The position numbers were made by a program, and so were the translations under genes. Below, in pieces: positions 4,431-19,608 of a stretch of 22,073 bases of DNA (position 1 is its first letter; each line of letters starts with the position of its first letter). The notes under the pieces were generated by a model, which saw only the letters and a list, made by a program, of their open reading frames with translations, was not told where the DNA came from and made no database searches. This DNA is from a virus: positions 1-22,073 of IMG/VR virus record IMGVR_UViG_3300009285_003473; one strand, written 5' to 3'.

Positions 4431-5643
4431 TCAACCCGGCCTAAGGGCCGGCGTTTCGTGAGGTAGCTCGGCGTGGTACACGCAAAACCACTTTCACTTT
4501 CCTGGTTCGACGGGCGCCCTGTGGCGTATCCTCCCCAGGCAGACCCGAGCGATTCACACGGGTTTTGATGTTCTTCGAGGCATTGACGTCTGCATGATCA
4601 CGATGGCCGCAAGCAGTACAGACGAAGCGCTCCCCAGAGCGGGAGGCGGCGTCTACCGCGCCGCACACGGCGCACGTCTGCGACGTGTACGCGGCGGGCA
4701 CCTTGACGAGCGTCGAGCCGTTCCAAGTCGTCTTGTACGCCAGCATCTTGGCAAGCTGGCCCCAGCCCGCTGCCAGGATGGATCGGTTCAAGCCTCGTTT
4801 TTGAGCGACGCGCTTGCCGGGGGCCTCGACGGTTCCGGCAGCGCTCCTGGTCATGTTCCCGATCTTCAGGTCTTCGATGACGATGACGCCGTGGCTCTTG
4901 GCGTACCGACTCGACTCGACGTGAAGAACGTGGTCGCGTTGCCGTCGCACCTTGCGGTGCAGCCGCGCGACCCGGAGGTTGGCTTTCTTCCTGTTGCTAC
5001 TACCATTTCGTTTGCGGCTGGCGCTGCGTTGAGCGCGAGCGAGTTGCTTGCTGGTGCGCTCGAGGTGCTTCGGGTTGACGACGATGCGACCGTCGCTGTC
5101 CGCCAACAGGTTGGTGACGCCCCGGTCGATGCCGACGACGGGCTCGGTGCGTGGGGAAGGGTTGATCTCGACCGCGCATGTGATAACAGCAAACCACTGG
5201 TCCGCGTCGCGGGTGAGCGTGCAGGTCTTCGGGGTGCCTGCGAGGGGTCGATGGATGACGGCTCGCAGGCTTCCAAGTTTCGGGAATCGGATAGTCTTGC
5301 CGTCCAGACACCACTTTTTCGGTCGGGGCTCGCAAAAGTTGAGGCTGTCGCGCCCCTTGCGTTTCCAGCGCGGAGCACGAGCGATGCGAGCGAAGCATCG
5401 CTGCCACGCCTTGTCCAGTTCCACCAGGAACTGCGCGCAGACGTCATAAGGCACGTCGGCCAACCATGGCAATTCGGCGCGGAGGGATGTAAACTCGATC
5501 ATCTGATCAAACGCCGTGGGGTAGACCTTGTCGGTCCGGCGCAGGCCCATCAGGCGCTGCTCGAGCGCAAGGTTCCACAAGAACCGCAAGGCGTCGTTCC
5601 ACGCCGTCATCCGAGCGATCTGCTGCTCGGTCGGGTAGATCAC
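4428..5643 (-). mobile_element. IS200/IS605-type tnpB element lacking tnpA and its left end
   Basis: The region codes for a nearly complete TnpB body (see the fusion CDS) and ends in a typical right-end hairpin. There is no tnpA transposase gene. There is also no non-coding left end: the TnpB coding sequence begins directly in the tail-protein frame at about 5640. The element is therefore not a clean insertion. It is either a remnant joined by recombination or the product of a deletion that removed the left end and the TnpB start. The exact limits are estimates. Confidence 0.6.
4436..4451. repeat. Perfect hairpin at right end of tnpB element
   Basis: CCGGCC, a TAAG loop and GGCCGG form a perfect 6-bp stem overlapping the tnpB stop codon. 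IS200/IS605 elements end with such a sub-terminal hairpin just after tnpB, and it also caps the 3' part of the TnpB guide RNA. It is followed, in tnpB orientation, by GTTGATTAC, which is a likely place for the element boundary. No T-run follows, so it is unlikely to be a simple terminator. Confidence 0.65.
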
Positions 5644-6510
5644 CCAGTTCTGAGACGAGGCCACCGCACGATGGCAGACCGGCACTCCCACCCCCTGGAA
5701 CTCCAGCGGAGAATCCGTCAGATCGAATCCTGGCACGATCTGCAAGCCCCACTTGCTCCACACGAACAGGCGCTCCAGCAGGTCGTTCTCCCCGCGTGGA
5801 ACAAACGTCGCGCCCGCCACGATGTTGTCCTTCGCCAGCCAATACCCGCCGTTGGTCAAATCCCAAATGCCGGACGTGAGCGCATCGGCAGGCGGCGTGT
5901 AGTCGAACACGTTGTCCCCGTCGCTCATCATCAACCGGTTCTGGAACCAGACCACGATGTAGCAGGCGGTCGGCCAGGTTCCGGTGCAGGCATTGGTGCC
6001 GCCGGACTTCTGATCCGTGTAGAGGTTCCCGTTCTTCAGCTCCGGCATCATCACGTTCGAGGCCGGATTCACTACCGCCACTTCCTGGGCTGTGGCGTCC
6101 GTGCCCACGAAGGCATAGCCATCCCCAATCGTCACGCTCCACTTGGTCACGTCCGCATCCCACGCGAACGCAGCGGAGTCCCCGCTGTTCCGCATGATCG
6201 TCCAGCTTCCCCCGCTGGCCTTTCGGTACATGGACTTCTTCCCCACCAGGAATTGCACGCCGCCCGCCGAGAACCCGCCCCGGATCACCTCGCTGGATGC
6301 GTGGACGCTGGCACTGGCATCTATCAACGCAGACCCTTTCCGCTTGGCCAGCGCTCGTTGGGAAAAGTCGATGTTGCGCTGATCGCTGGCCTCCATCGGC
6401 GCGTACTGCCCCCACCCCCCATCATTGAAGCGATGGGAGCGCGCCAGCAGGCTCAGGGCCTCGTCGGCCCAGTTCCCGCCTCCAAAGGCCCGGCAATCCA
6501 GGCTAATCAA
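4441..6510 (-). CDS. Fusion: phage tail (stabilisation-like) protein N-terminus + complete TnpB nuclease body, 689 aa
   Basis: Starts at TTG 6510, placed six bases after GGAGG and 14 bases after the previous stop. Residues 1 to ~290 (GGWGQYAPMEASDQRNIDFS, then NRLMMSDGDNVFDYTPP) are beta-rich and look like a podovirus tail stabilisation/tubular protein, fitting the position after the adaptor gene. From residue ~291 (IYPTEQQIARMTAWNDALRF) to the end the sequence is TnpB. It has RuvC-I Asp462 (GIDRG), RuvC-II Glu546 (VIVIEDLKIGNM) and RuvC-III Asp641 (DHADVNASKNI). The zinc finger has Cys613/616 and Cys631/634 (CAVC...CTAC). All catalytic residues are present. Only the first ~8-10 residues usual in TnpB are replaced. 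The tail half lacks its normal C-terminal part, so it is probably defective as a tail protein. Alternatively the join is an assembly artefact. Confidence 0.8.
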   Translation of the reverse strand: MISLDCRAFGGGNWADEALSLLARSHRFNDGGWGQYAPMEASDQRNIDFSQRALAKRKGSALIDASASVHASSEVIRGGFSAGGVQFLVGKKSMYRKASGGSWTIMRNSGDSAAFAWDADVTKWSVTIGDGYAFVGTDATAQEVAVVNPASNVMMPELKNGNLYTDQKSGGTNACTGTWPTACYIVVWFQNRLMMSDGDNVFDYTPPADALTSGIWDLTNGGYWLAKDNIVAGATFVPRGENDLLERLFVWSKWGLQIVPGFDLTDSPLEFQGVGVPVCHRAVASSQNWVIYPTEQQIARMTAWNDALRFLWNLALEQRLMGLRRTDKVYPTAFDQMIEFTSLRAELPWLADVPYDVCAQFLVELDKAWQRCFARIARAPRWKRKGRDSLNFCEPRPKKWCLDGKTIRFPKLGSLRAVIHRPLAGTPKTCTLTRDADQWFAVITCAVEINPSPRTEPVVGIDRGVTNLLADSDGRIVVNPKHLERTSKQLARAQRSASRKRNGSSNRKKANLRVARLHRKVRRQRDHVLHVESSRYAKSHGVIVIEDLKIGNMTRSAAGTVEAPGKRVAQKRGLNRSILAAGWGQLAKMLAYKTTWNGSTLVKVPAAYTSQTCAVCGAVDAASRSGERFVCTACGHRDHADVNASKNIKTRVNRSGLPGEDTPQGARRTRKVKVVLRVPRRATSRNAGP

Positions 6511-6524
6511 TCAGAGCCTCCAGG

Positions 6525-7208
6525 TTAGAATCTCCAAGGGCGAATCCGCCCAAACCCAATCAGGCTGGGAGTCGCGTCCTGCTCCGGCAGCAACGACACT
6601 CCATCATCGATCAGGCTCAATGCCCGCTGCATATCTCCCCGCTTGGCCTTGTAGTCCGCTGCGATGAAGTGCGCCAGGGCGCGGTCTGCGTTCTTGTGAA
6701 TGAAGCAGCTCGATGAAGACCCGGAACTGAATTCGGTGCGTTCGATGATCCCCGTGATGCGGAGCGTATCGGCCTGATAGGGGCGCCTGCGCAGGGCCAG
6801 CTTCAACGTCCCGGCCACGTCGATCAGGCGGGCATAGGTGGGCCTGTCCGTCCCGTTCTGATCGTCGTAGGCGCTCCACGTCGCCATGTCCGGCGCCCAT
6901 TCGATAGGATACGGATCGCTGGTACTGGCATCGATCCCCTCCAGCCAGACCGGCGCCTTGAAGACCGGTGTCGCGGGCCAGGTGTAGGTGTCCTCGTCCC
7001 CCACCACCATCGTCAGACTGGTGTTCTCGCGCGTAGCTTCCGGCCAGCGCCTACCGATCACCATGCCCAATAGCTTGAACCCGGGGCTCAACATCCCCTG
7101 GTAGATCAGGTTGGCAATGCGCAGCCCTTGCGCCGAGACGATGGTCAGGTTCCCATCGTCGGCGTAATGCCGCACGTCTTCCTGGATGTTTGTCAGCGTG
7201 TCAGCCAT
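6525..7208 (-). CDS. Head-tail adaptor / tail accessory-like protein, 227 aa
   Basis: ATG at 7208 overlaps the end of the upstream coiled-coil gene by eight bases. The product begins MADTLTNIQEDVRHYADDGN and is mostly helical at both ends. A beta-rich middle has aromatic and Pro motifs (DEDTYTWPATPVFKAPVWLE), and a C-terminal helix bears ALAHFIAADYKAKRGD. Length and layout fit the small adaptor proteins placed between portal/capsid and tail genes in P22- and N4-like phages, which prolong the portal ring. The next gene encodes the tail stabilisation-like protein, as expected for this role. Family assignment is by context and general look, not a diagnostic motif. Confidence 0.6.
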   Translation of the reverse strand: MADTLTNIQEDVRHYADDGNLTIVSAQGLRIANLIYQGMLSPGFKLLGMVIGRRWPEATRENTSLTMVVGDEDTYTWPATPVFKAPVWLEGIDASTSDPYPIEWAPDMATWSAYDDQNGTDRPTYARLIDVAGTLKLALRRRPYQADTLRITGIIERTEFSSGSSSSCFIHKNADRALAHFIAADYKAKRGDMQRALSLIDDGVSLLPEQDATPSLIGFGRIRPWRF

Positions 7209-7423: not shown

Positions 7424-8142
7424 CAGGCCACCTTTCGCATCATGGCGTTCCGCGCGGCGTGCCATTCCGCGGCATACGGCACATCCTGGAATCCTGGAAA
7501 CCAGGGTCCGCCTTCCGTGAAGTGGACAGCCTTGGGGTCGATGCTTGTTGGGCTGTGCCCGACCAGCCAGTTCCACTCTTGCCCCAGTTCTCCAATTTCG
7601 CTCATCTCCAGCCATTGGAACGTGTGCAGAAAGAAGCCCGGATAGGCGTTGATCTTGCGCAGGTCAAGCCCCCGGTACCGGCCGGCGATCCGGTGTGCCC
7701 GGTGCCCGCAGTTCCACAGCACGAAGCTGGACCAGTTCTTCCGCTCGTAAGGCTCCTGCACAACCCCGTCCATTTTAAAGCCAAATCCCGGCGAGTACCG
7801 GTGCTGCACTAGTTGCACGGCCTTGCTCTCGTCCCGTTGCTCCCACACCTCCCGGATATCCGCCCTGAACAGGACATCGCAGTCACAGAACAAGGCCCAT
7901 CCCTGGTATCCCATCAGGTATGGCACCAGGAACCGGGCGAAGGAGAACTCCGTGCTGAACGGCCGCCCATCGATCCCGTCATGAAACTGCACTCCATCCT
8001 GGCGATAAGGGCGGGTCATTTCAGGCCGGCGATGGTTCAACGGCTCCACCTGAAGCGGGATCGTCGCGTGACGCATCAGCGTGTGCGCACACACAGACCA
8101 AGCTTCCTGCTCGCGGCTGTCGTATCCGATGAAGACATTCAT
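7423..8142 (-). CDS. GT8-like glycosyltransferase, 239 aa
   Basis: Start chosen at ATG 8142 because it overlaps the radical SAM stop (ATGA) and begins MNVFIGYDSREQEAW, a typical first strand of GT-A transferases. The longer frame to 8232 lies inside the radical SAM gene. Residues 84-91 (LFCDCDVL) hold the metal-binding D-x-D (Asp87, Asp89) at the end of a hydrophobic strand. His207 in KAVHFTEGGPWF matches the C-terminal His of GT8-type enzymes. The protein should transfer a sugar from a nucleotide-sugar; donor and acceptor are not readable. No membrane segment. It is the last gene of the sugar cassette and is coupled to the structural genes downstream. Confidence 0.72.
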   Translation of the reverse strand: MNVFIGYDSREQEAWSVCAHTLMRHATIPLQVEPLNHRRPEMTRPYRQDGVQFHDGIDGRPFSTEFSFARFLVPYLMGYQGWALFCDCDVLFRADIREVWEQRDESKAVQLVQHRYSPGFGFKMDGVVQEPYERKNWSSFVLWNCGHRAHRIAGRYRGLDLRKINAYPGFFLHTFQWLEMSEIGELGQEWNWLVGHSPTSIDPKAVHFTEGGPWFPGFQDVPYAAEWHAARNAMMRKVA

Positions 8143-9095
8143 GTGTAGGCCACGCAGGATTCGCAGGGCGTCCCCGCCACGTTCTTGCCGAGATGCGCGC
8201 TCCGGAGCGATTGGTACGCCGGGGAGTTCCACGCTTCCATGAATGGCGTGTCCTTCAGATCTCCCATCGTGAAGTCATCCGTGTGCGAGAAGCAGCACGC
8301 AGTCAATAGCCCATCCCATGTCACATGGCCTCCTGTGAAGAGCGCCCAGCACGGAATGGGAGCGACCAAGCCCCCGACTCGCCCTGCATTGCCTGCCGTT
8401 GGCACATAGCCCTGCTTGTTGATCTGCTCGGAAGCCAACGTGTGCTGGCTGTAAAGCGGCAGGTAGTAGTGCTCGTCCAGGTACGGTCTCAGGTCATCAA
8501 CCGCCGCTTCCATGCGTTCCCGCTGTGCCCCCTCGTACAGGATGGAGCTGGCGTACAGCCCGCAGCGATGCCCTGTCTGGTCGTACACCATGTCTCGCCG
8601 CGCCTTCGCCGCCTTGATGTTCTTCACTACCCGCTCGAATGCGTTCACCTGCGTAATCTCCCGCATCTGCTCCCCGTCCGACCAGTTGAAGCTGAATTTG
8701 AGCGAGTCCAGGCCAGCATAGAACAGTTGCGTCAGCTTCTCCGGGGTGGCGAGGCGCCCGTTGGTGGTCAGAAAGACGTAGGGGTATTTGCATTGGCGCT
8801 TGGCATACTCCACCGCATCCGCGAGTTTCGGATACAGCATCGACTCGCCCAGATAGAACAAACCCAACTCCTCCACACCAGCTTCCCGCATGTCCATCGC
8901 CAGGCGCCGGAACAGATCAAAGTCCATGTGTCCCTTCTGCCGCAACCCATGGCTGGTCGCGCAGAAGAAGCACTTGTAGTCGCACACGGCTGTCAGCTCC
9001 ACCTTCACCGCGCGGGGCGGTGGAATGGCCGCCATACGATGCGAGTCCGGGATGTGCGTCACCCGGTCGATCCTGCTCGTGATGAGCGCCTTCAT
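8139..9095 (-). CDS. Radical SAM protein with SPASM-like C-terminus, 318 aa
   Basis: ATG at 9095 overlaps the stop of the DegT-like gene (ATGA). Residues 38-45 are CDYKCFFC, the C-x3-C-x2-C that holds the 4Fe-4S cluster and S-adenosylmethionine. It is followed by a YLGESMLYP segment in the GGE position and a TTNGR strand. The C-terminal ~90 residues have clustered cysteines (CWALFTGG, ACCFSH, CESC) with the TWDGLLTACC and FMEAWNSPAYQSLR patterns of SPASM domains that hold extra clusters. Such enzymes modify peptides, proteins or sugars by radical chemistry. The substrate here is unknown; neighbours make a sugar-linked or virion-protein target plausible. Confidence 0.85.
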   Translation of the reverse strand: MKALITSRIDRVTHIPDSHRMAAIPPPRAVKVELTAVCDYKCFFCATSHGLRQKGHMDFDLFRRLAMDMREAGVEELGLFYLGESMLYPKLADAVEYAKRQCKYPYVFLTTNGRLATPEKLTQLFYAGLDSLKFSFNWSDGEQMREITQVNAFERVVKNIKAAKARRDMVYDQTGHRCGLYASSILYEGAQRERMEAAVDDLRPYLDEHYYLPLYSQHTLASEQINKQGYVPTAGNAGRVGGLVAPIPCWALFTGGHVTWDGLLTACCFSHTDDFTMGDLKDTPFMEAWNSPAYQSLRSAHLGKNVAGTPCESCVAYT

Positions 9096-10249
9096 GCGAT
9101 CTCCTTGCGGATGAATTGGAATGCGTTGTCCAGATCAGCGAACTGCGCTTCGGTCGCGTTGGGATAGCACCCGATCATCAGGCATTGGGTCCAGACCCGA
9201 TCAGCCCCAGGGAAGTCATCGGCACGCCCCAGGCCCTCGAACGCCGGGTGGCGGAGCAAATTCCCCGCGATAACGGCGCGGGTTTCTACCCCCAAGTCTT
9301 CCAGCCATCGGCGGACCGTTGTGGCGGGCCTGTGCTTGCAGCGCAGCACAACCGCCATCCAACTGTGCTGCTTCGGATCGTCCGTCATCCCCACCATCTC
9401 CAACTCTGGGTGCCCGTCCAGCATGGCCGCGATACACATGGCATTGGCCCGGCGGAGTGCCACGATCTCGCCCGCGCGCGCAATCCGGCACTTGCCGATG
9501 GCTCCCTGAATCTCCAATGGGCGCACGTTGTAGCCGAGATTCGAGAACAAGAACCGGGGATCAAGCTTGGGGTGGTCCCCAATCCATATGGACGCATCGG
9601 CCCGGTCCCTGATCCACCCGTGCGCACGGAGCGCCCGGAGTGTGTTGGCGGTGGCAAGGCTGTCCGTCACGATCATCCCGCCTTCCATCGTGGTCAGGTG
9701 ATGTGAAAAGAACAGGCTGAACGACCCCATCCGTCCGAAGGTGCCGACATGGCGTTGGTCCCATTCCGCGCCGAAGGATTCACAGCAATCCTCGATGAGC
9801 GCCATCTTGCTGGCTTTCGCGTATGAAACGATCCGGCTCATGTTGCAAGCGCGCCCCAGAACGTGCACCGGCATGATGGCCTTGGCGTCCGTCTGTGCAG
9901 GCAGGATCATCTCCAGCATCTCCGGGTCAACGTCGCAGAACACTGGACGCAAGCCCAGTTGAATGACCGGCGCCACCGTCGTTGACCACGCCAGAGCCGG
10001 GACCAATACTCCATCGCCCGGCGACAGAAAGCCCCCGTTGCGCTCCAGCATGGCGTCCAACATCAGCAGATTGGCACTCGATCCGCTGTTCACCATCACG
10101 GCATAGTTGGCATGGATATAGTCAGCGAACATCCGCTCGAATTCCCGGACCTGCTCCCCCATCGTGTACCGCCCGGATTGCAGAACGGAAATAGCCGCTG
10201 CAATCTCGGCAGGGCCGAAGCCGTCAATGGCGAGAGGATATCTGTTCAT
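9092..10249 (-). CDS. DegT/DnrJ/EryC1-family enzyme with His at the PLP-lysine position (likely sugar 3-dehydratase type), 385 aa
   Basis: Start at ATG 10249 (TAATG overlap with the FkbM stop); a TTG six bases upstream is the alternative. Fold-type I PLP enzyme features are clear: SGSSAN near residue 55, VFCDVDP at 103-109 and the PLP-binding Asp154 (LIEDCCESFG). The EGG motif is at 189-191. The residue that is normally the Schiff-base lysine, six before the Glu of EGG, is His183 (SHHLTTMEGG). In ColD (GDP-4-keto-6-deoxymannose 3-dehydratase) and the E1/RfbH enzymes the same Lys-to-His change converts an aminotransferase into a C3-deoxygenating dehydratase. I therefore infer a 3-deoxysugar step rather than a plain aminotransferase. 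Substrate unknown. Confidence 0.82.
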   Translation of the reverse strand: MNRYPLAIDGFGPAEIAAAISVLQSGRYTMGEQVREFERMFADYIHANYAVMVNSGSSANLLMLDAMLERNGGFLSPGDGVLVPALAWSTTVAPVIQLGLRPVFCDVDPEMLEMILPAQTDAKAIMPVHVLGRACNMSRIVSYAKASKMALIEDCCESFGAEWDQRHVGTFGRMGSFSLFFSHHLTTMEGGMIVTDSLATANTLRALRAHGWIRDRADASIWIGDHPKLDPRFLFSNLGYNVRPLEIQGAIGKCRIARAGEIVALRRANAMCIAAMLDGHPELEMVGMTDDPKQHSWMAVVLRCKHRPATTVRRWLEDLGVETRAVIAGNLLRHPAFEGLGRADDFPGADRVWTQCLMIGCYPNATEAQFADLDNAFQFIRKEIA

Positions 10250-10812
10250 TACCAACCCATGAGTAGGTCTATTTGAAACTGCCGCACCACAACCATGCCG
10301 AGGGAGCGGAGAAAGTCCTGCGCCGCCCCGGTGGGTATCCCATAGTGCTCCGAGAGACCGTCTTTCTGTTCCAGTAACACCAGCGGGCGATTGCTGAGCA
10401 GCGTTTGCACGGCGCCGTGCAGGGCGTGAAAGTCGAACCCCTCCAAGTCCATCTTCATAAATTTCACGTTGCGCATGTTCATCGAATCCAGGCGGATTGT
10501 TTTCGCTGGACTCCCGGTGCTGGATATTCGCGCCGTATCGGTCTTGCCGGACAACCGCTCCGCCACCGCGACCTTGTGATCCTGCACCCAGCCCAGCGCC
10601 AGTTCATGTACTCTCACGTTGTTCAGCCCGCGCAGATTCGCGCGCAATGTGCGCGCTGTGACAAGATTCGGCTCGAATGCGTACACCACGTCGTGTTTCA
10701 CGGCCAGCATCCTGGTCCAGAGCCCAAAATGGGCGCCCGCATCAATCGCCACCCCACCGTGTACAGCATGTTCTTTAATAGCGGACAGCACTCGCTCGCC
10801 TTCACGATTCAC
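10249..10812 (-). CDS. FkbM-family S-adenosylmethionine methyltransferase, 187 aa
   Basis: Start set at GTG 10812, which overlaps the previous stop (GTGA) and has AAGGGGGGAAGG upstream. The frame reaches back to 10884 but that part lies inside the neighbouring gene. Residues 22-30 (AIDAGAHFG) are the SAM-binding motif I, FEPN (46-49) follows the second strand, and KMDLEGFDFHAL (120-131) is the FkbM signature. These enzymes mostly O-methylate sugars or polyketides. It is slightly short but complete. Context suggests methylation of the sugar made by the cassette. Confidence 0.82.
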   Translation of the reverse strand: MNREGERVLSAIKEHAVHGGVAIDAGAHFGLWTRMLAVKHDVVYAFEPNLVTARTLRANLRGLNNVRVHELALGWVQDHKVAVAERLSGKTDTARISSTGSPAKTIRLDSMNMRNVKFMKMDLEGFDFHALHGAVQTLLSNRPLVLLEQKDGLSEHYGIPTGAAQDFLRSLGMVVVRQFQIDLLMGW

Positions 10813-11549
10813 GCAGCCTTCCCCCCTTTCTTGAGCATCCCCTTGAGATGCACCATGTACTCGGCCAACACCGTCTTTGGCCACACGTTGAGGCCCAGCC
10901 TTCCATCCCCCTTCACGTCCTTGGACAGGTTGTTGACCTCGTGTGCCAGGCCCAGCAGGTCAAGCAACTGATCCAGCGATGAGCAGTCGTGCCACCCTCT
11001 CAATTCCAAGAATGAGCCACTGGTGAAGCATTTGCGGTATGCTTTCAGCAGGTGTCGCATCCGGCGCTCGCGGGGGTCGTACCCAGCGAAATCGCTTTCC
11101 ACGTGCATGCCCAGGTGCCTCCGCAGCAAGAACACGCCGGGAAAGCCATCCATCAGGCCGTGCAGGAACTCCGGGGGGATGAGCTTCAAGGCCCGCACGT
11201 CGGCGCCGATGAAGTAGAACGGCTTGCGTTCCAGCGCATAGTCCGTGATGGCGAACACCTTTCGCCCGAACTTGTGCGCGTTGAAGTTGTAGTGGTACTC
11301 GCCCGTCGGCAGAATGCCTTGCAGCAGCGGCACCATGCTCGTCCACTTGATGAAGTGCGCGCACTCCTCCTGAGCGAACAGGTCCCGGTACTCCACGCGA
11401 TCCTGAAACTCCGCGGGAGCCTCATGCTCGTAGTACGCGACGATGGGGCCTGGCCAGTACCGCACCAGCGATGCCAGTCCCTCGCGCCCCCACTTCTCGT
11501 AATACTCAGGGCTGAACGTCGTGATTGCCGTCGGGCTGTCTGATGTCAC
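10809..11549 (-). CDS. Glycosyltransferase-like protein, 246 aa
   Basis: GTG at 11549 is six bases from a strong GGAGG. Residues 111-127 (FYFIGADVRALKLIPPE) resemble the strand and metal-binding loop of GT-A nucleotide-sugar transferases found in phages, but the usual D-x-D is reduced to G-A-D. The C-terminal motif GWHDCSSLDQL (185-195) also looks like those enzymes. There are no membrane segments. It may be a transferase with an altered metal site or an inactive relative. It overlaps the small gene upstream by 44 bases and the FkbM gene by four. Confidence 0.5.
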   Translation of the reverse strand: MTSDSPTAITTFSPEYYEKWGREGLASLVRYWPGPIVAYYEHEAPAEFQDRVEYRDLFAQEECAHFIKWTSMVPLLQGILPTGEYHYNFNAHKFGRKVFAITDYALERKPFYFIGADVRALKLIPPEFLHGLMDGFPGVFLLRRHLGMHVESDFAGYDPRERRMRHLLKAYRKCFTSGSFLELRGWHDCSSLDQLLDLLGLAHEVNNLSKDVKGDGRLGLNVWPKTVLAEYMVHLKGMLKKGGKAA

Positions 11550-11712
11550 GGAAATCCTCCATGGTCATGCTGGGCATTGGCTCCCAGAACCGTGCGAACT
11601 GGGCCTCCATTTCTGCATCGGACGGGTCAGGATGCTCGGCTTTCCACGCCTCCCATCCGGCTTGATCGGTCAGCTTGAAGAACCTCCAGTCCACCGGTTG
11701 TGCGGGCTTCAT
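11506..11712 (-). CDS. Small protein overlapping two neighbours, 68 aa
   Basis: ATG at 11712 has GAGG eight bases before it. The product MKPAQPVDWRFFKLTDQAGW is acidic with many Trp and Phe (EAWKAEHPD, FARFWEPMP) and looks coding. It overlaps the TPR-transferase gene by 86 bases and the next gene by 44, which is unusual even in compact phage genomes. Alternatives are a spurious frame or a sign of a frameshift at the end of the TPR gene. Family unknown. Confidence 0.5.
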   Translation of the reverse strand: MKPAQPVDWRFFKLTDQAGWEAWKAEHPDPSDAEMEAQFARFWEPMPSMTMEDFRDIRQPDGNHDVQP

Positions 11713-13093
11713 AGCGCCTCTTGTAGTCGATGAGTTTTTGGGCGGTCTTATCTACCGTAGGAGCCCATGTTTCGCCTTCCTTCTGCCGGATAAGCTCTAC
11801 GGTCTTTCCGTACCAGGCCATGTGGTCCCCGCTGACCCCGTAGCGCCATGCCGGGCGCGCGGGGGTCAGGCACCAGCAAGAGCGCCCCAGCGCCCCAGAG
11901 AAATGCACCGCGGACTGGCACACGGAGATCACCAGGTCCAGGGCCGAGATCAAGGCGAACTGATTCTCGAAGTTCTCCGCCGCGCTGTTGGCCTCTTTGA
12001 AGTTGTGTATCCCAGCCTGGTCCGCCTCCTTGTCGTGCCCCCACTTGTCGTATTGCAGGGATGTGAACGTGCAGCCGGTGGCAAAGATCGGCCCCCACTG
12101 GCTCAGCGGGATTGAGCGGTAGTCGAACCGGGTCTTCTTTTCACCGCCGAACCATGCGATCCCGACATAGGGGCCGGACCCCAGTTTCTCCAACTCCGCC
12201 CGGTAGTGGCGGACCCGCTCAGGGTCAGCTTTAAGATACGGAGTCCCAGGGAAGGCGTTTGCAGACTTCCGGAACAGAGACGGCAATGAGCCGAACCCGA
12301 TCTGCGAATCGATGGGGTGCTCATGGTGCCATGTGATCTGATCCGTCTTCCGCGTCCCGTAGACCGGCACTCCTGGGAAGTTGCGCTTGAAGATCGGCTC
12401 CAGACGCGGGTGGCAGTCGATGATCGGGTGCTTACAATTGGCGATGAAGTCCGGCAGGCAGGAGGCGAACATGACCTCATCACCCACACCCTGCTCGCCC
12501 CACGCCACCGCACAGCGGTTGCGCTTACCGTCCCACATGCGCATCTGGTCCCCTTCCTTGTAGGACCGCTGCTGCATCTTGCGCTCGCCTTCCAGGTACC
12601 CAGGCCAGCCACGCTCCCAATCCCCCTGCTCCAGGTAGCCGATAGAACGGTTCCAAAGTGCTTGGCGCATGCCAGGCTCAAACTCCAGCGCCTTGTTCGC
12701 CCATTCGATCACCTTCCCAGGCTGGCCCTGGTTGATGTAACAGGCAGCCATGGAGTTGTAGATGCCGGGCTCCCTGGGATCGATTGCGATGGCCTTGTCG
12801 AAGGCGTATTCGGCTTCCTCCTGGTAGCGCTCCAGCAAAAGCGCCTGGCCGATGTTGCTCCACATGAGGGCCTTGGCATCGGTCGGCATGTCCGTCCATT
12901 CCCGCAGTAGATAGCGATAGAGATGGATGGCCAGTCCGTGATTCGCCCTCCGCATCATGGAATCGGCGTAGTTCCCCAGGACGTGCAGGTCGCTCGGGTG
13001 CCGATCCATCCAACGTAGGAATGCCTCGTCCGCCTTGTTATGCTTGCCCTTTTCAACCAAAGAGGCGACGGAGGTTTTTGTGCGTTCGCTCAT
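11627..13093 (-). CDS. TPR protein with GT-B-type glycosyltransferase domain, 488 aa
   Basis: ATG at 13093 with TTGAGGTTGC upstream, eight bases after the terminator T-run. Residues ~10-175 are tetratricopeptide repeats (AEYAFDKAIAIDPREPGIYN and KVIEWANKALEFEP are typical units). Residues ~190-460 are a transferase-like domain with WGEQGVGDEVMFASCLPDF and the C-terminal DLVISVCQSAVHFSGALGRS, the pattern of TPR-linked family 9/41 glycosyltransferases. These can glycosylate proteins or build surface polymers. The last ~30 residues are Arg/Ser-rich and overlap a small gene in another frame. It leads the sugar cassette. Confidence 0.72.
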   Translation of the reverse strand: MSERTKTSVASLVEKGKHNKADEAFLRWMDRHPSDLHVLGNYADSMMRRANHGLAIHLYRYLLREWTDMPTDAKALMWSNIGQALLLERYQEEAEYAFDKAIAIDPREPGIYNSMAACYINQGQPGKVIEWANKALEFEPGMRQALWNRSIGYLEQGDWERGWPGYLEGERKMQQRSYKEGDQMRMWDGKRNRCAVAWGEQGVGDEVMFASCLPDFIANCKHPIIDCHPRLEPIFKRNFPGVPVYGTRKTDQITWHHEHPIDSQIGFGSLPSLFRKSANAFPGTPYLKADPERVRHYRAELEKLGSGPYVGIAWFGGEKKTRFDYRSIPLSQWGPIFATGCTFTSLQYDKWGHDKEADQAGIHNFKEANSAAENFENQFALISALDLVISVCQSAVHFSGALGRSCWCLTPARPAWRYGVSGDHMAWYGKTVELIRQKEGETWAPTVDKTAQKLIDYKRRYEARTTGGLEVLQADRSSRMGGVESRAS

Positions 13094-13595: not shown

Positions 13596-14681
13596 TTAGG
13601 AGGGATCGGGCGAGAAGGTGGAGGCGACGATTGTTCCGAAGTCTTCCGTCGATCCACCGATGGTGTACTGGGACTTGACCATGCCGTAGATCATGCCGGC
13701 GGACACGCCCAGCTTGTTGCCGTAGTCGAACAGCTCCTCGAACCACGCGGGGCTGTCCGGACTGTAGTTGTTGCCGAGCACCAGATTGACGGCCTGGGCG
13801 CCACAGAGCACCGCCCGGTAGACGCTGGCAGTACCGATGTTGGTATTCCCGGTGCTGCCGCCGCACACACGCTCGGACTCGTGGATGATGGCACCGTTCC
13901 ACTCGCCCACAGCGCCCGTATACAGGGGGTTCCCGCTGATCTGCCCGCCCTGGATCGCGGCTTTCTGGATGTCCAACCAGTTGCCGGACGCCGCTGCCGT
14001 GGTGCGCAGTTGGTGCAGTTGGAACGTGTGGATGAAGACGGCGTACTTGTCCTCGCCGCCAATGCGCAGCGGGCGAATCTTCTGGTTCGCCTTGGTCTTC
14101 GCCCGCGTAACCATCCGGTCGATGGTCGTCAGGGAGAAAGCCGAGGAAGCAGATGCGGAAAGAGATGCTTCCGCCGTGCCGCCGACGAACAGGTGGTTGT
14201 TGGTGGAAGGCGCGCGGGTCGCGTTGTTCCCCGTGTAGCGCGTGTCGGACTGGTTGGTGTTGCCACAAATGTGGTTGAAAAAGTTCTCATCCAGACGGGT
14301 GGCATACCAATCCGCGAGGCCGATGAAGGCTTCGTTGCGCATGGAGAACGGCACGCGCTGCTCGGAGGCGCGCCCTGCGGAACGGACGGCATGGCGGAGC
14401 TGATCCAGGGTCACGCTGTCGCGCGAGGTCTGGAGTTGCTCCTCATTGCCTTCCAGGGTGCCGTCTCCCTGGATACCGGCGCCGGTCAGTTGGGCGCGCA
14501 GCATCGGGTAAACGGTGTCGCCGGAGTTCTTCTGCAACTCGGTGTGAAGTTGGACCAGGGAGTTGGAATCCTCCCCCACGAACTTGTTGAACCACGAGCG
14601 TGTGCGCGCCTCGTGGATCATCTTGCGGGTCCAGAACTTTACCGCGAGTGCATGATTGACCCCGAAAGAGGTATCAGCCAT
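13596..14681 (-). CDS. Major capsid protein, N4-gp56 type, 361 aa
   Basis: ATG at 14681. The product begins MADTSFGVNHALAVKFWTRK and carries segments typical of the N4-gp56 capsid family: KNSGDTVYPMLRAQLTGAG, a LDQLRHAVRSAGRASEQRVP helix, and an IGLADWYATRLDENFFNHIC stretch. The length (~360) is normal for this HK97-fold protein. It assembles into the icosahedral shell on the scaffold encoded just upstream. The ribosome-binding site is weak (GAG, nine bases away), and a 324-base folded non-coding region separates it from the scaffold gene. It may be affected by that insertion. Confidence 0.85.
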   Translation of the reverse strand: MADTSFGVNHALAVKFWTRKMIHEARTRSWFNKFVGEDSNSLVQLHTELQKNSGDTVYPMLRAQLTGAGIQGDGTLEGNEEQLQTSRDSVTLDQLRHAVRSAGRASEQRVPFSMRNEAFIGLADWYATRLDENFFNHICGNTNQSDTRYTGNNATRAPSTNNHLFVGGTAEASLSASASSAFSLTTIDRMVTRAKTKANQKIRPLRIGGEDKYAVFIHTFQLHQLRTTAAASGNWLDIQKAAIQGGQISGNPLYTGAVGEWNGAIIHESERVCGGSTGNTNIGTASVYRAVLCGAQAVNLVLGNNYSPDSPAWFEELFDYGNKLGVSAGMIYGMVKSQYTIGGSTEDFGTIVASTFSPDPS

Positions 14682-14685
14682 TGCG

Positions 14686-15005
14686 GTTCACTCGGTAGAG
14701 AAATTGGTAAACGCGGACGCTCGTGCGCAATGCGCGAGCCCGGTTCCGATTCCCCTTCACGCTGGGATTAGCGATTCACCGAGTGACGCTGGTGAGACGT
14801 ATGACGGCTTGGGCCGTCGGTCCTTCTGCCGCGATGACGGTGCGGCTCCCGTGCGCCCGTAATGAGGGCGAGTCAAAGGGCGGAGCGCCCAATTCTTTAC
14901 CCGCGCGATTTAACCCTCACGCGGTATGCACTCCACGCAGCAAGTATGCATCACCCGACTTAACGGGATGTAGCCTTATGCATGGAATCCTTTGGACGCT
15001 CCCGA
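14686..15005 (-). ncRNA. HEARO/omega-RNA-like structured RNA without an IscB gene
   Basis: This stretch has no convincing ORF on either strand and is dense in hairpins. On the minus strand it reads CATCCCGTTAAGTCGGGTGA, then GTGAGGGTTAAATCGCG, GGGCGCTCCGCCC, CTCGCCCTCATTACGGGCG and GACGGCCCAAGCCGTC. From memory this series of motifs matches HEARO RNAs, the guide RNAs of IscB nucleases. HEARO elements are reported to integrate next to ATGA or GTGA, and GTGA is exactly here at the scaffold stop (15006-15009). In IscB loci the nuclease gene follows; here the capsid gene does. Limits are approximate and the guide would be the adjacent scaffold 3' end. Other possibilities are a capsid mRNA leader or another mobile palindromic element. 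Confidence 0.55.
14688..14786. repeat. 9-bp inverted repeat flanking a hairpin, before capsid start
   Basis: TCACTCGGT (14688-14696) and ACCGAGTGA (14778-14786) are perfect complements enclosing ~80 bases that contain a strong hairpin (GCTCG/CGAGC, around 14719-14739). It sits at the 3' side of the HEARO-like region and covers the upstream region of the capsid gene. Confidence 0.7.
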
Positions 15006-15989
15006 TCACGCGCCAAAGAGCTTCTTGACCTTCTTGGGGTCAGAGGCGATCTTGGCAAATTCTTCTTCTGACATACCGACAACGGCCTCCAATGTCAACT
15101 CCTTGGATGTGTCGCTGTTTTTCGGATTCCTGGCCGCGGACTTGCCATCCGCCAGCGGCTTGAGTTGTGAAGCGTCGATCTTGGCGGTCTCAGTTGGTTT
15201 CTCACCTGCATCAGCGGGCTGCTTGCCTGCTTTGGCACGCGAGATGACGGCTTGGGCTTCCTTGTAGGCAATCTTGGCGAAGTTCACACCCTTGGACTTG
15301 GCGAAGGTCGCCCGCTGCAAGATGTACTCATTGATCTCCCGCTCCGCCAGCTCGGTGGCTTGATCTTCCGATGCGTCCAGTTCCATCAACTCCCGCGTCC
15401 TGTTCTCAATGGCGATTTCGCGCGCCGCCTTGATGGTTGAATCGTAGTCGGCGTGCTGTTTTGCAAACTCCACCTCTTGCGGGTAGGCGTAGTCGATGAT
15501 GCCCCGGATTTCCTCGTTCCGCGAGGTCTTGGCCCGCTCCTGCTCATGTTCCTGGGCTTTCTCGGCCTCCACCTTCTCCATGTAGCGGGCGTGCGCTTCG
15601 GGCTCCATCTCCTTGTCCGGGGCCTGTGCTTGCACCTGGAACTGAGTCAGGGTTTCAAGGCGCTGCTGGGCCTTCTTCCGGAACTCATCGAACTCCTTGA
15701 CCTTGTTGCGCAGTTCCCGCCGCTCCGCCCGCAACTCGCGGATGGTGTCGATGGGCGTGCGCCTCTTGAACGGCTCTACCGCCGCTTCTTTCTCCCCGCC
15801 CGCCTCTTCCTCCGCCCCTTCGGTTTTCTCGCCCTCAGCGCCCTCCTGGGTGCCTCCCTTGGCCTGTTCATCGGCCTTGGCGGGCGCCTCCTCCTTCTCA
15901 ACCTCTTGAACTGGAGCGGGTTCAGCCTTCTGCCCCGTCTCCGCCTCCAGGTAGGCTTGCTCCTCCGGGCTCAGTTGCAGCTCAGTCAT
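15006..15989 (-). CDS. Capsid scaffolding protein (putative), 327 aa
   Basis: ATG at 15989 overlaps the portal stop (ATGA). The product begins MTELQLSPEEQAYLEAETGQ; residues ~18-75 are extremely Glu/Ala/Lys-rich and disordered (EKEEAPAKADEQAKGGTQEG). Residues ~90-235 form long charged helices, and the C-terminal ~30 residues (EEEFAKIASDPKKVKKLFGA) make a basic helix of the kind that docks scaffold to capsid. Position between portal and capsid genes, acidity and helix content all fit a scaffold, which fills the procapsid and leaves on packaging. There is no protease motif. Confidence 0.75.
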   Translation of the reverse strand: MTELQLSPEEQAYLEAETGQKAEPAPVQEVEKEEAPAKADEQAKGGTQEGAEGEKTEGAEEEAGGEKEAAVEPFKRRTPIDTIRELRAERRELRNKVKEFDEFRKKAQQRLETLTQFQVQAQAPDKEMEPEAHARYMEKVEAEKAQEHEQERAKTSRNEEIRGIIDYAYPQEVEFAKQHADYDSTIKAAREIAIENRTRELMELDASEDQATELAEREINEYILQRATFAKSKGVNFAKIAYKEAQAVISRAKAGKQPADAGEKPTETAKIDASQLKPLADGKSAARNPKNSDTSKELTLEAVVGMSEEEFAKIASDPKKVKKLFGA

Positions 15990-18127
15990 TCAGCGCCTCC
16001 ATTGGCGGGTTTCTGCCGCGCGACCTCGCGCTGCGTGGCGAGTTCCATCATTTTCAGGTCCCGCTCCTGCTCCAGCTTGCGGATTTCCAGATCGTAGTCC
16101 AGGCGCATCTTCTGCCGTTCCAGATCGAGTTCTTCTTCCTGGGCGTCGTCCTTCTGATCGAGCTTGGCGCTGTCCATGGCCGTTTCAGCCATCATCTTCT
16201 GCATCTCGATCCCGGCCTTGGCCCTGAACATCATGTTTTCCTGCTGGAGCTTCTGGAGTTGCGCTTGCAGGGCTTGGCCTTCCGGCGTATCGAGCGGATT
16301 CTGTGTGAGCGCCTTGACGATCTCGCCTTGAGTTTCGATATCCAGGGGGGTGTTCTTAATCATCAGCGGCATCAGCTTGGCCGCGGATTCCGGAGCTTGC
16401 CGCAGAACTTCCATGAGGATGTTAAGTGTGTACTCCTTGGCGTTCGGGGATGTGGGGGCATCGTCCACAATCACGTCGTAGTTCCGCACGTCCAGAGAGC
16501 GCAGCGCCTCCAGGACTTCCGGCGGAATCGGCCGCCCCACGATCCTGGCGAGTTGAGCGTTGGAAAAGTAGCGCGAGATGTAGTGGATCAGCACCTTGCC
16601 CTGGCGCTTGTGATGGCGCCGCTTGGCGTTGAACAGAGGCGCCAGCACAGCCATGGACGCCTGTTTGCGCATGTTCTCCAGAATGCCGGGCTGATCCCTG
16701 GACACCAAGCCCATCGTCTCCGGCGTCAGGCCGTCCAGGGCCGGCAGAGAATCGATGGCAAACGCGGTCAGTTTGTCCAGGTCCGGGGGATACTGGCCTG
16801 GCTTGACGGGCAGGAAATCGTTCTGCAGGTTGGCGTCATCGCGCGCCCACTGCACTGCATCCGGGCTAGCGATCTTAGACTCGAACTCGGAAGGGTTTTC
16901 AACCGCCCGCTTCTTGACGATCCAACCACCCTTGGGATTGACCGTGTAGATGTAGATGGCCTGAGACAGAAACTTGTTGCTCCACTCCTGCGGATCGATC
17001 AAGCCCGCCACCATGCCGATGAAATGCCCCTCTGTCTCATCGCGCCAGCCGGTCATGAAGGAGTCCGTGAATCCGTATGGGCAGGGCGATTCCTTGTCTT
17101 CCAACAATTCATTGCCGGTGAAGTAGGCGCGCCGGTATTCCTTCTCCATCTGTTCGACATAGGGCAGGATCAGCACCGGGCCTTCCGGAACCGTCTGCAT
17201 TCCGGCCGGCATGTCATCCTCGAACTCGGCAAACTGCACGCTCAGGCCACGCGCGGCCATCATGGCGGTAATCTCGCTGGCCTTCTCCGGGCGCGTGAAG
17301 CGCATGGAGCCGTCTGGCGTCATCACCCGCCAGACCTTGACGCGCTTGATGTAGTGGTAGCGCACCAGGCGCACCTTCTGGCCCCGCTTGTACTCGTCCC
17401 TACCACCCGCCATCGGGACCTCGTTCTCGTAGAACTTGTCCCGGTCTGCATCATGCGGCTGTTCCTCCTGCTGTTCCCACAGGTCTTGCACGCCAAGCGC
17501 TCCAGCCCGGGCCTTGGAGATGGGAAATCCCATCGCCTCGAACTGGTCGCGCGTGATGTCCTGGGAATAGAAGTAGTGCTCCGCGTCAGTGAAATTGGCG
17601 TCGGTGGCATTGCTGTCCCAGTCATAGCCCAGCGGAGAGCGGCGCATCGTCACCGCAATCCCGTCCGGGTTCTCCTCGTAGTCCATGACGGTCTCCGAGC
17701 ACCCAATCCCCGAGATCACCATGTCCTGGAACTGTTCCGTCTCGTGATCTTCCGTCTCGGCCTGATCGCGGGTCCATTCGGACGCCTTGTTGAGCACGGA
17801 GACCAGCATCTCATCGGCTTCTTCACGCGGCGCGTAGCGCAACTCCTGCCGGTTGCTGATTTCCATTCCCACCACAGCCGAGACGCGCGGCTTGATCCGG
17901 TTCATCACCACCGGGGCCTTGCCTGAGGCTTTCAGTTGCGTCTGCTCTTCCTCGGTCCACTGGCGCCCGGCGTAGTATGCGTAGCACTTCTTGGCAAGCC
18001 GCTTCCACGGGCCCCAATGCCGCCGGGCGCGCAGGTACTTCTCGCGAACCTCGGTCACGAAGTCTTCCGACCCGTCCCCGTAGTAGGACGAATCCTGCTC
18101 CACGGATTGGGATGTGCGCTCGGTCAT
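15986..18127 (-). CDS. Portal protein, P22-like, 713 aa
   Basis: ATG at 18127 overlaps the terminase stop (ATGA). The N-terminal region (WKRLAKKCYAYYAGRQWTEE then VVMNRIKPRVSAVVGMEISN) is the typical opening of P22-type portals. The length (713 residues; P22 portal is ~725) also fits. The C-terminal ~110 residues are long Gln/Glu/Lys helices (QENMMFRAKAGIEMQKMMAE, LRLDYDLEIRKLEQERD-like), as in the portal barrel. Twelve copies form the ring through which DNA enters the head and on which the terminase motor docks. Order terminase, portal, scaffold, capsid is the expected one. Confidence 0.9.
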   Translation of the reverse strand: MTERTSQSVEQDSSYYGDGSEDFVTEVREKYLRARRHWGPWKRLAKKCYAYYAGRQWTEEEQTQLKASGKAPVVMNRIKPRVSAVVGMEISNRQELRYAPREEADEMLVSVLNKASEWTRDQAETEDHETEQFQDMVISGIGCSETVMDYEENPDGIAVTMRRSPLGYDWDSNATDANFTDAEHYFYSQDITRDQFEAMGFPISKARAGALGVQDLWEQQEEQPHDADRDKFYENEVPMAGGRDEYKRGQKVRLVRYHYIKRVKVWRVMTPDGSMRFTRPEKASEITAMMAARGLSVQFAEFEDDMPAGMQTVPEGPVLILPYVEQMEKEYRRAYFTGNELLEDKESPCPYGFTDSFMTGWRDETEGHFIGMVAGLIDPQEWSNKFLSQAIYIYTVNPKGGWIVKKRAVENPSEFESKIASPDAVQWARDDANLQNDFLPVKPGQYPPDLDKLTAFAIDSLPALDGLTPETMGLVSRDQPGILENMRKQASMAVLAPLFNAKRRHHKRQGKVLIHYISRYFSNAQLARIVGRPIPPEVLEALRSLDVRNYDVIVDDAPTSPNAKEYTLNILMEVLRQAPESAAKLMPLMIKNTPLDIETQGEIVKALTQNPLDTPEGQALQAQLQKLQQENMMFRAKAGIEMQKMMAETAMDSAKLDQKDDAQEEELDLERQKMRLDYDLEIRKLEQERDLKMMELATQREVARQKPANGGAE

Positions 18128-19608
18128 GCCGCCTTCCAGTTACGGACCGCCGCCCGCACTTTCCGCTTGTAGCGGTCGATGTAGTGCTCCTCCACCTTCT
18201 GCAAGCCACCCGCGAAGGTCAGGATCAGAGCTTCGGCCAGGTCGGGAGAATTGGCGTCCAGGCGCTTCTTGAAGTCCTTCTTGGACTCCACCTGGATTAC
18301 CCCGTTCGACCGCACCTCGAACTTCGGCGTGGTCAGTTCGGACATCAGGTCCTCGTCAAAGGGGATGGAGACCGTCTGCTGCTCGAACCATTCACGGGCC
18401 AAGTACCACAGTTCATCCCGCCGGCGATGGTACTTCTCCCGGATGGAAGCCGCTTCCGAAGCGTTGAGCGAGCGGACCGGCAGCCCGTTCTCCCGCATCC
18501 GGTCATAAGGCCCTGCGCCCAGGCCCACGGTATCGACCACGATCTCCGCAGGACGCATCTCCTCCGGGGTGTCCTGGTATTCGAGCTGCAACAGCCCGGC
18601 AATCTGCATCCCATCCTTCTTGACCCACCACCTGATCGGCTCCAGCACCTTGTTCCCCCGCCGCTTGCAGAGCGCCGTGCGGTCGTCCCCGAAACGGGCC
18701 ACGTCCAGACCCCACACCACCCGGTAGGTTCCATCGTCCGGGATTTCCCGCTGAGAGGCATCGTAGACCCACTCCCACGGGATCAACACATCCGGATCGG
18801 AAGCTGGGAACTCGCCCAGGACACGGATGCGGTAGATGTTCGAGGTCTTCCCGTACCGGCCCGCCATGCGCTCCGGGTACTCCGGAGACACCAGCCGGGA
18901 CATCTTGCCATCCGGGTAGATGCACGGGATGTGGATGGGGTGGAATCGCCTGTCCTTGAACGCCGAATGGAAGTACCCCGAAGCCTTGGTGGGGTTCCCC
19001 ACCAGCAGCATTACCGCCCCCTCGTTGGTCAGCGCACCCTCGATGGGCTCAAAGACCTCGTTCGGGATACCGCTCGCCTCCTCTCCCACGAACAGCAGGT
19101 GCGGGCTGTGAAAGCCCTGCAAAGACTCCTGCGTAGACCCCGTGCGGGCAATGGCAAAGCGGGTCTGCTCCTCGCCCTTGATGAAGACCTTGGTCTTCTG
19201 CCACTCGAAATCATCCTTGACCAACGACATATCGAGCAGCGCGGACATCTCGGGCCACAGGTTGTCGGTCAACTGCTCCTTTTTGGGCGCCGTGCAGGGC
19301 ACTTTGGCCTCAGGGAACAGGTACAGCCACGTCAGAACGAGCATGGCAAGGCCACCTGTCTTGCCCACCCCGTGCCCGGACCGAGCTGCTACACCGAACT
19401 TCCGCTTGCCGTCCGAATCCTTGAGGAATCCGAACTTGGAAGCGAACACGGCCCGCACCAACTGCTTCTGCTCATCAGTCATGGTGCGACCGGTGGCTTT
19501 GGTGTTCAGCAGTTGGTGCTCGATGAACTCGGTCGGGCGCCGGATGTAGTGGGCAAGGGCTTCGGCATCCAGTTGAAACTGGTGCCGTTCTTCGCCCCTG
19601 GCCGCCAT
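18124..19608 (-). CDS. Terminase large subunit, 494 aa
   Basis: ATG at 19608. ATPase domain: Walker A SGHGVGKT (residues 77-84), Walker B LLFVGEEASG (171-180, with Glu in place of the usual Asp before the catalytic Glu) and coupling motif LLVGNPTKASGYFH (201-214). Nuclease domain of RNase H type: Asp302 (VVWGLDVARFGDDRTA), Asp359 (AEIVVDTVGLG) and Asp456 (SPDLAEALILTFAG). The enzyme pumps DNA into the procapsid and cuts the concatemer. Length and motif order are complete and the gene looks functional. The gene before it encodes a tiny basic protein, and the portal gene follows with a 4-base overlap. Confidence 0.95.
   Translation of the reverse strand: MAARGEERHQFQLDAEALAHYIRRPTEFIEHQLLNTKATGRTMTDEQKQLVRAVFASKFGFLKDSDGKRKFGVAARSGHGVGKTGGLAMLVLTWLYLFPEAKVPCTAPKKEQLTDNLWPEMSALLDMSLVKDDFEWQKTKVFIKGEEQTRFAIARTGSTQESLQGFHSPHLLFVGEEASGIPNEVFEPIEGALTNEGAVMLLVGNPTKASGYFHSAFKDRRFHPIHIPCIYPDGKMSRLVSPEYPERMAGRYGKTSNIYRIRVLGEFPASDPDVLIPWEWVYDASQREIPDDGTYRVVWGLDVARFGDDRTALCKRRGNKVLEPIRWWVKKDGMQIAGLLQLEYQDTPEEMRPAEIVVDTVGLGAGPYDRMRENGLPVRSLNASEAASIREKYHRRRDELWYLAREWFEQQTVSIPFDEDLMSELTTPKFEVRSNGVIQVESKKDFKKRLDANSPDLAEALILTFAGGLQKVEEHYIDRYKRKVRAAVRNWKAA

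Follow-up and report, generated by a model that had tools for sequence, protein, structure and literature searches.

In MS2-type operators, the coat protein binds an RNA hairpin and represses translation. The coat operators of MS2, PP7 and Q-beta are short hairpins with a constant loop beside the capsid gene, their stem sequence being free to vary, and in these respects they resemble the hairpins described here; they lie over the start, however, whereas the present family belongs to tailed dsDNA phages, forms arrays whose distance to the downstream start codon exceeds 40 nt and carries an RCGUYA loop. The scaffolding protein gene of P22 is subject to post-transcriptional autoregulation, so a procapsid assembly gene is controlled there too, in phages with P22-type portals. 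We know of no RNA element of the RCGUYA type described in P22, and the present element differs in that it precedes the capsid gene, and the scaffold gene only in some relatives. To our knowledge, how tailed phages set the ratio of capsid to scaffold and its timing from one late transcript is largely open. The open-licence literature yielded no described capsid-leader hairpin, and a prior description elsewhere is possible; both the RCGUYA motif and its location in tailed dsDNA phages are apparently novel, while leader-hairpin control is of a known kind. The conserved hairpins reported below point to what may be an undescribed RNA signal for the control of capsid production.

The DNA analysed (the window) is the 22,073-nt stretch at positions 1 to 22,073 of the IMG/VR virus contig IMGVR_UViG_3300009285_003473, about 22 kb. 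Its structural genes and the features of the gap under study are collected in Table 1. The acidic ORF in the scaffold position had no family match, and its start overlaps the stop of the portal gene (gap -4); a portal-scaffold gap is therefore absent in this phage. The first-pass annotation had described a 324-base, non-coding and heavily folded stretch between scaffold and capsid genes, and this location agrees with the gene assignments, the scaffold role being assigned by synteny.

Table 1. Features of the structural-gene region of the window and of the leader of the capsid gene.
Feature	Position	Strand	Basis or remark
Terminase-like gene	18124-19608	minus	Ahead of the portal gene in transcription order
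P22-type portal gene	15986-18127	minus	PF16510
Acidic 327-aa ORF, scaffold position	15006-15989	minus	Between portal and capsid; putative scaffold, by synteny only
Non-coding leader (5' UTR / intergenic) of major capsid gene, 324 nt	14682-15005	minus	Fold, no conserved ORF, gap in relatives
Hairpin-like covariance-model match, GCGUGA core spanning the scaffold stop codon	14999-15018	minus	Model R1 rank 2 in contig, E about 0.8; weak alone
5' domain, 126 nt	14877-15002	minus	Closed by 11-bp helix GGAGCGUCCAA/UUGGGCGCUCC; fold z -5.6; contains CCCGUUAAGUCGGG
Weak hairpin ACC[GCGUGAG]GGU, 3 pairs, borderline	14913-14925	minus	Competes with a longer hairpin in the minimum-energy fold
Hairpin GCCGC[ACCGUCAUC]GCGGC, CGUCA loop	14828-14846	minus	Motif rule
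Hairpin UCACC[AGCGUCACUC]GGUGA, GCGUCA loop	14776-14795	minus	Motif rule; best match to family motif
Hairpin UCCC[AGCGUGAA]GGGG, CGUGA loop variant	14752-14767	minus	Covariance-model match 14750-14769
Capsid start-proximal segment ACCGAGUGA	14688-14696	minus	Complementary to 14777-14786
Major capsid gene, Phage_capsid_3 / N4-gp56-like	13596-14681	minus	PF13252, E=2.4e-68; phrog_334 major head protein

Stops interrupt the gap in every one of its three sense frames, none of its reading frames has a relative in the fetched phages, and the conserved ORF that would have argued against a non-coding stretch was looked for and not found. The minus-strand RNA folded well below its dinucleotide shuffles (z of -4.5 or -3.6 in two runs, the latter on the full 324 nt), while 66 other 324-nt stretches of the contig gave a mean z of 0.0 (sd 1.1, minimum -2.8) and the plus strand of the gap a much weaker -1.3. 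Since the minus-strand fold exceeds the shuffles, the other stretches and the plus strand, and no ORF is present, the basic observation of the first-pass annotation was correct. No tRNA or tmRNA was found, no Rfam family reached its gathering score in the window or in 32 related loci, and no DNA homologue of the gap was found in phages or plasmids. No promoter was recognised in it by consensus, and transcription from upstream is therefore assumed. The very stable 5' domain, which the RCGUYA motif does not explain, had no homologue in anything searched, and exact 17- and 19-mers from it were absent from the viral contigs.

The same annotation had read the stretch as a stand-alone HEARO or omega RNA, a guide RNA without its IscB nuclease. 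HEARO is likewise a structured non-coding RNA of similar length located 5' of a gene; the gap is non-coding and folded, with GTGA at the scaffold stop, and a resemblance to the consensus can be seen by eye in short stretches, GGCTACATCCCG and GATGCATACTTGC among them. The Rfam model RF02033, however, gave no match at its gathering score in the window and none at E<=10 in 14600-15100, nor in the whole contig when searched alone. As a positive control, 80 IscB loci were fetched from bacterial genomes and 20 of them were scanned with the same model, which detected an omega RNA beside IscB in all 20; 16 lay above the cut-off just upstream of IscB, and in the remaining four HEARO was found below the cut-off, with E values from 0.15 to 1e-15. 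Detection below the cut-off matters because, in a published survey, only 65% of HEARO nuclease leaders matched the Rfam model (PMC9755519). The HEARO motifs claimed for the gap thus stayed silent at E<=10 under a model that recognised every control at E<=0.15, and the covariance search proposed with the claim spoke against it.

The annotation was right that iscB is missing and that the capsid gene stands in its place, as the IscB RRXRR domain (PF14239) is absent from the contig and the gene downstream of the gap encodes the capsid protein. GTGA is indeed present at the scaffold stop (gcGTGAtc), where it had been taken for the integration motif, but GTGA occurs 135 times over both strands of the contig, and because a covariance-model match spans the scaffold stop, the GTGA here is probably the CGUGA loop core of that hairpin-like match. 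The proposed comparison with relatives lacking the insert revealed instead that this site is occupied by a gap of 60-690 nt in diverged relatives too, so 14682-15005 is not an insertion next to GTGA. With no RF02033 match at E<=10, no IscB in the contig and no insertion, we rejected the stand-alone HEARO or omega RNA, which we regard as barely conceivable at this locus. The alternative offered in passing by the first-pass annotation, a capsid leader, fared better: it is precisely in these capsid leaders that a hairpin family, conserved and strand-specific, is located.

This family was recognised in capsid relatives taken from viral contigs and annotated phages. In almost all of them the capsid gene follows a non-coding gap, mostly of 100-330 nt (range 60-690 nt), and the DNA of this gap does not align across lineages, with 38 blastn groups among 97 leaders. 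In an unbiased loop test, the 5-mers in hairpin loops (stem >=6) of 66 dereplicated leaders were compared with those of 1869 chunks of equal length from other parts of the same loci. Most over-represented in the leaders were GCGTC (p=2e-15), CGTCA (1e-14) and GGCGT (6e-14), with CGTTA also among the top. The shared loop is RCGUYA, with the variants CGUGA and CGUAA, and it is carried on stems of unrelated sequence, as in L010 (GCUCUCAGG[GCGUCA]UCUGAGAGC), Rhizobium phage RHph_Y1_10 (L122; UGCCGGUGA[GCGUCA]UCACCGGCA) and Microcystis phage Mae-JY35 (L121; UGACAG[AGCGUCAC]CUGUCG). The phages concerned are podovirus-like, combining a P22-type portal with a Phage_capsid_3 capsid, and their leaders carry one to several of the hairpins.

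Under a fixed rule (NCGTYA with N not T, stem >=5), this first set contained 52 hairpins in 39 of the 66 leaders, against a mean of 1.6 and a maximum of 7 in 200 shuffles and a single hairpin in the antisense direction; the density was 3.5/kb in the leaders, about 26-fold the 0.13/kb measured over the remaining parts of these loci. For replication, with the motif class fixed beforehand, 59 leaders dissimilar to the first set were drawn from the matches listed (at least 595 capsid relatives). Among these listed matches, 25 of the 59 leaders held 30 hairpins (shuffles: mean 0.5, maximum 3, n=100; antisense 0), at 2.5/kb in leaders and 0.10/kb elsewhere. When the class also included CGUAA, 60 of the 108 leaders listed had at least one hairpin with five or more pairs; the other 48 had none of that length, and some of them had none at all. 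Because hairpins picked for their stems make a covariation count circular, covariation was left out as evidence, and the fraction of core sites that bear a stem was used instead: leaving the window aside, stems of at least five Watson-Crick pairs carried 40 of the 76 GCGTYA sites in leaders, compared with 7 of 237 elsewhere in the same loci.

Across 82 hairpins, the base before CGU was G in 49, A in 23, C in 10 and never U, and the variable loop base was C in 39, U in 25, A in 9 and G in 9. The loops centre on CGUNA and are mostly 6-9 nt long, only three of the 82 having 5 nt; one clade has C[GUGAU]G loops. Loop constancy on stems that change freely is reminiscent of a site recognised by an RNA-binding protein. 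We suppose that the RCGUYA loops would be recognised by such a protein, encoded by the phage or by the host, and that its binding would set the amount of capsid, and of scaffold, made from the shared transcript. Taking these features together, we consider the stretch, on balance, to be probably a cis-acting leader of the major capsid gene that would control procapsid genes via its hairpins, a judgement drawn from comparison of sequences.

The position of the hairpins bears on how such a leader might act. Among the 108 leaders listed, no hairpin comes closer than 40 nt to the capsid start codon, which makes simple steric hindrance of the ribosome unlikely as a rule for the whole family. Hairpins well upstream of the ribosome site would also suit a role in mRNA stability or processing, in which tandem hairpins serve as barriers or RNase landing sites and the capsid segment outlives the rest of the transcript with no need of a specific partner. 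Stabilising this segment would make sense, since no product is more abundant than the capsid protein, and in some relatives the hairpins form arrays with single-stranded UCGY spacers. A generic barrier, though, needs no constant loop, while here the loop varies far less than the stem and the hairpins are orientation-specific; we therefore hold this explanation to be rather unlikely, although worth keeping in mind.

In 34 of the 82 hairpins, UUCG stands within 14 nt upstream of the stem, where 8% would be expected. A lambda-type nut site (boxA-boxB) has this layout as well, in which a conserved unpaired element precedes a short hairpin whose loop is conserved, and an antitermination or pausing signal of the nut/boxB or put type could let polymerase run through the late operon. 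Nut sites, however, have a GNRNA pentaloop and lie at the transcript start, whereas the CGUNA-centred loops, mostly of 6-9 nt, occur inside the structural operon, before the capsid gene and sometimes the scaffold gene, and we regard this role as improbable.

Genes of the HNH type also occupy the scaffold-capsid gap of L119, L120 and L122, so this spot is a target for mobile genes, and the motif might act at the DNA level, as a cruciform, a protein site on DNA or a homing target, or in trans as a separate small RNA. In L122, though, the hairpin is kept between the HNH gene and the capsid gene, and the motif is oriented with the capsid gene (one antisense hairpin in the 66 leaders, zero in the 59 listed), as expected for a cis-acting RNA. 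Roles of this kind seem more improbable still.

The leader in the window fits the family. It holds four hairpins with CGUNA loops and at least four Watson-Crick pairs, which occurred in none of 3000 shuffles and in none of 266 other windows of the contig, and two of the hairpins have five pairs, the stems being short overall (4-5 bp). They lie on the sense strand, in the non-coding gap upstream of the Phage_capsid_3 gene, the position that is typical of the family. Near these copies the sequence is AUCGCU and AUCGGA, not UUCG. Covariance models of single hairpins hold about 14-18 bits, too little for individually significant matches. A weak model built from 35 hairpins of relatives, none of them from the window, placed three sites in or at the edge of the leader at ranks 2-4 in the contig, each not significant alone; the hairpin at 14776-14795 is among these three leader matches within the model's four best.

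This hairpin may also reach the capsid start. Its loop and 3' arm, UCACUCGGUG, are complementary to ACCGAGUGA, which lies a short way upstream of the capsid start, and a two-state switch is proposed from this complementarity. With the hairpin formed, and possibly bound, the capsid start site would be open; with the hairpin opened and paired to the start-proximal segment, the site would be closed. The pairing exceeded that with the start regions of every unrelated leader tried in a swap test, was equalled in one of 100 shuffles, and is contained in the minimum-energy fold of the leader. Similar arrangements occur in L010, L164 and L215. Across the family, complementarity to the start was mildly enriched (mean percentile 0.59, p about 0.01; 8 of 74 above 0.95), and negative controls were flat. 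Given the result in the window and the mild effect in the family, a switch between hairpin and start region is likely in this phage and unproven in general; anti-start pairing, which is weakly supported across the family, is not claimed as its common mechanism.

The hairpins are not confined to the capsid leader. Of 48 strict sense matches in the 66 loci, 41 were in capsid leaders, and five of the other seven were located 1.1-1.5 kb ahead of the capsid gene, within or close to the gap between portal and scaffold, where hairpin arrays were seen directly in several relatives. The array of L129 reads CCGGC[AUUCA]GCCGG - CUUCGCCC - GCACGA[GCGCA]UCGUGC - UGUCGCA - AGCAACA[GCGUCA]UGUUGCU - GUCGUAA - GCCC[ACGUGAC]GGGC. 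Other gaps of the structural operon in complete genomes had no such hairpins.

Distant relatives, with about 30% capsid identity, have no RCGUYA hairpins and carry a CsrA-like gene exactly between scaffold and capsid. CsrA/Rsm sites are hairpin loops in leaders, and here the gene of an RNA-binding protein stands at the very junction that the RCGUYA hairpins occupy elsewhere; the loops bound by CsrA, however, carry GGA, and the RCGUYA family shows no CsrA-like gene at the junction. Because the distant relatives without the motif have a CsrA-like gene there, the comparison suggests that the scaffold-capsid junction may have come repeatedly under RNA-level control. In L123, L230 and L232 (BcepIL02, PEp14 and Skulduggery), the CsrA-like gene (PF02599) is immediately upstream of the capsid gene and is followed by a leader with a long hairpin near the capsid start. 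In Bcep22-like phages, a CsrA-like gene beside the capsid gene (gp47 of JC1) has been termed a moron gene (PMC9144972).

A broader model can be offered tentatively, as a possibility of lower standing than the cis-acting leader itself. A lineage of tailed dsDNA phages might couple procapsid assembly to translation through arrays of RCGUYA operators in the capsid and scaffold leaders, whose reader would be either a dedicated RNA-binding protein or one of the two assembly proteins, capsid or scaffold, itself, with the hairpin/start switch added in part of the family. If true, the logic of the RNA-phage coat operator would apply in dsDNA tailed phages of this kind, for which it has not previously been described. 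A conserved and easily mutated motif precedes these genes in the cultured phages RHph_Y1_10 and Mae-JY35, which makes the question of ratio and timing directly testable, and the motif offers new help in annotating leaders across hundreds of metagenomic phages.

Several further observations were made at these loci. In the branch of L012, L013 and L033, the capsid gene is directly preceded by two hairpins with an AGNA-type loop in either or both, such as CCUGCGC[AGUA]GUGCGGG and GGCGC[AGAA]GUGCC; this branch perhaps uses a different loop code at the same place. Sigma-70-like promoters were seen by eye in gaps next to HNH genes before the capsid gene, in L126 at about 6590-6640 and in L124 at 31729-31826 (TTGACA-17-CATAAT; TTGAAC-17-TATAAA), which suggests that, where the operon is interrupted by an HNH gene, the capsid gene can be served by a promoter of its own.

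Elsewhere in the window, a 689-aa ORF (4441-6510, minus strand) begins with about 285 residues that have no Pfam match and are phage-like by position, and runs on in frame into a near-complete TnpB, with OrfB_IS605 and Cas12f1-like TNB domains; its residues of about 291-651 align with ISDra2-type TnpB structures. This has the appearance of a tnpB inserted in frame into a phage gene. Between the capsid and tail-side genes, 8139-11549 (minus strand) encodes a radical SAM/SPASM protein, a DegT-type aminotransferase and an FkbM methyltransferase, and a TPR protein is encoded beside this cluster at 11627-13093; together they look like a sugar or surface-modification cassette. In MW202512, a phage with a related capsid, TPR and FkbM genes are likewise located downstream of the capsid gene.
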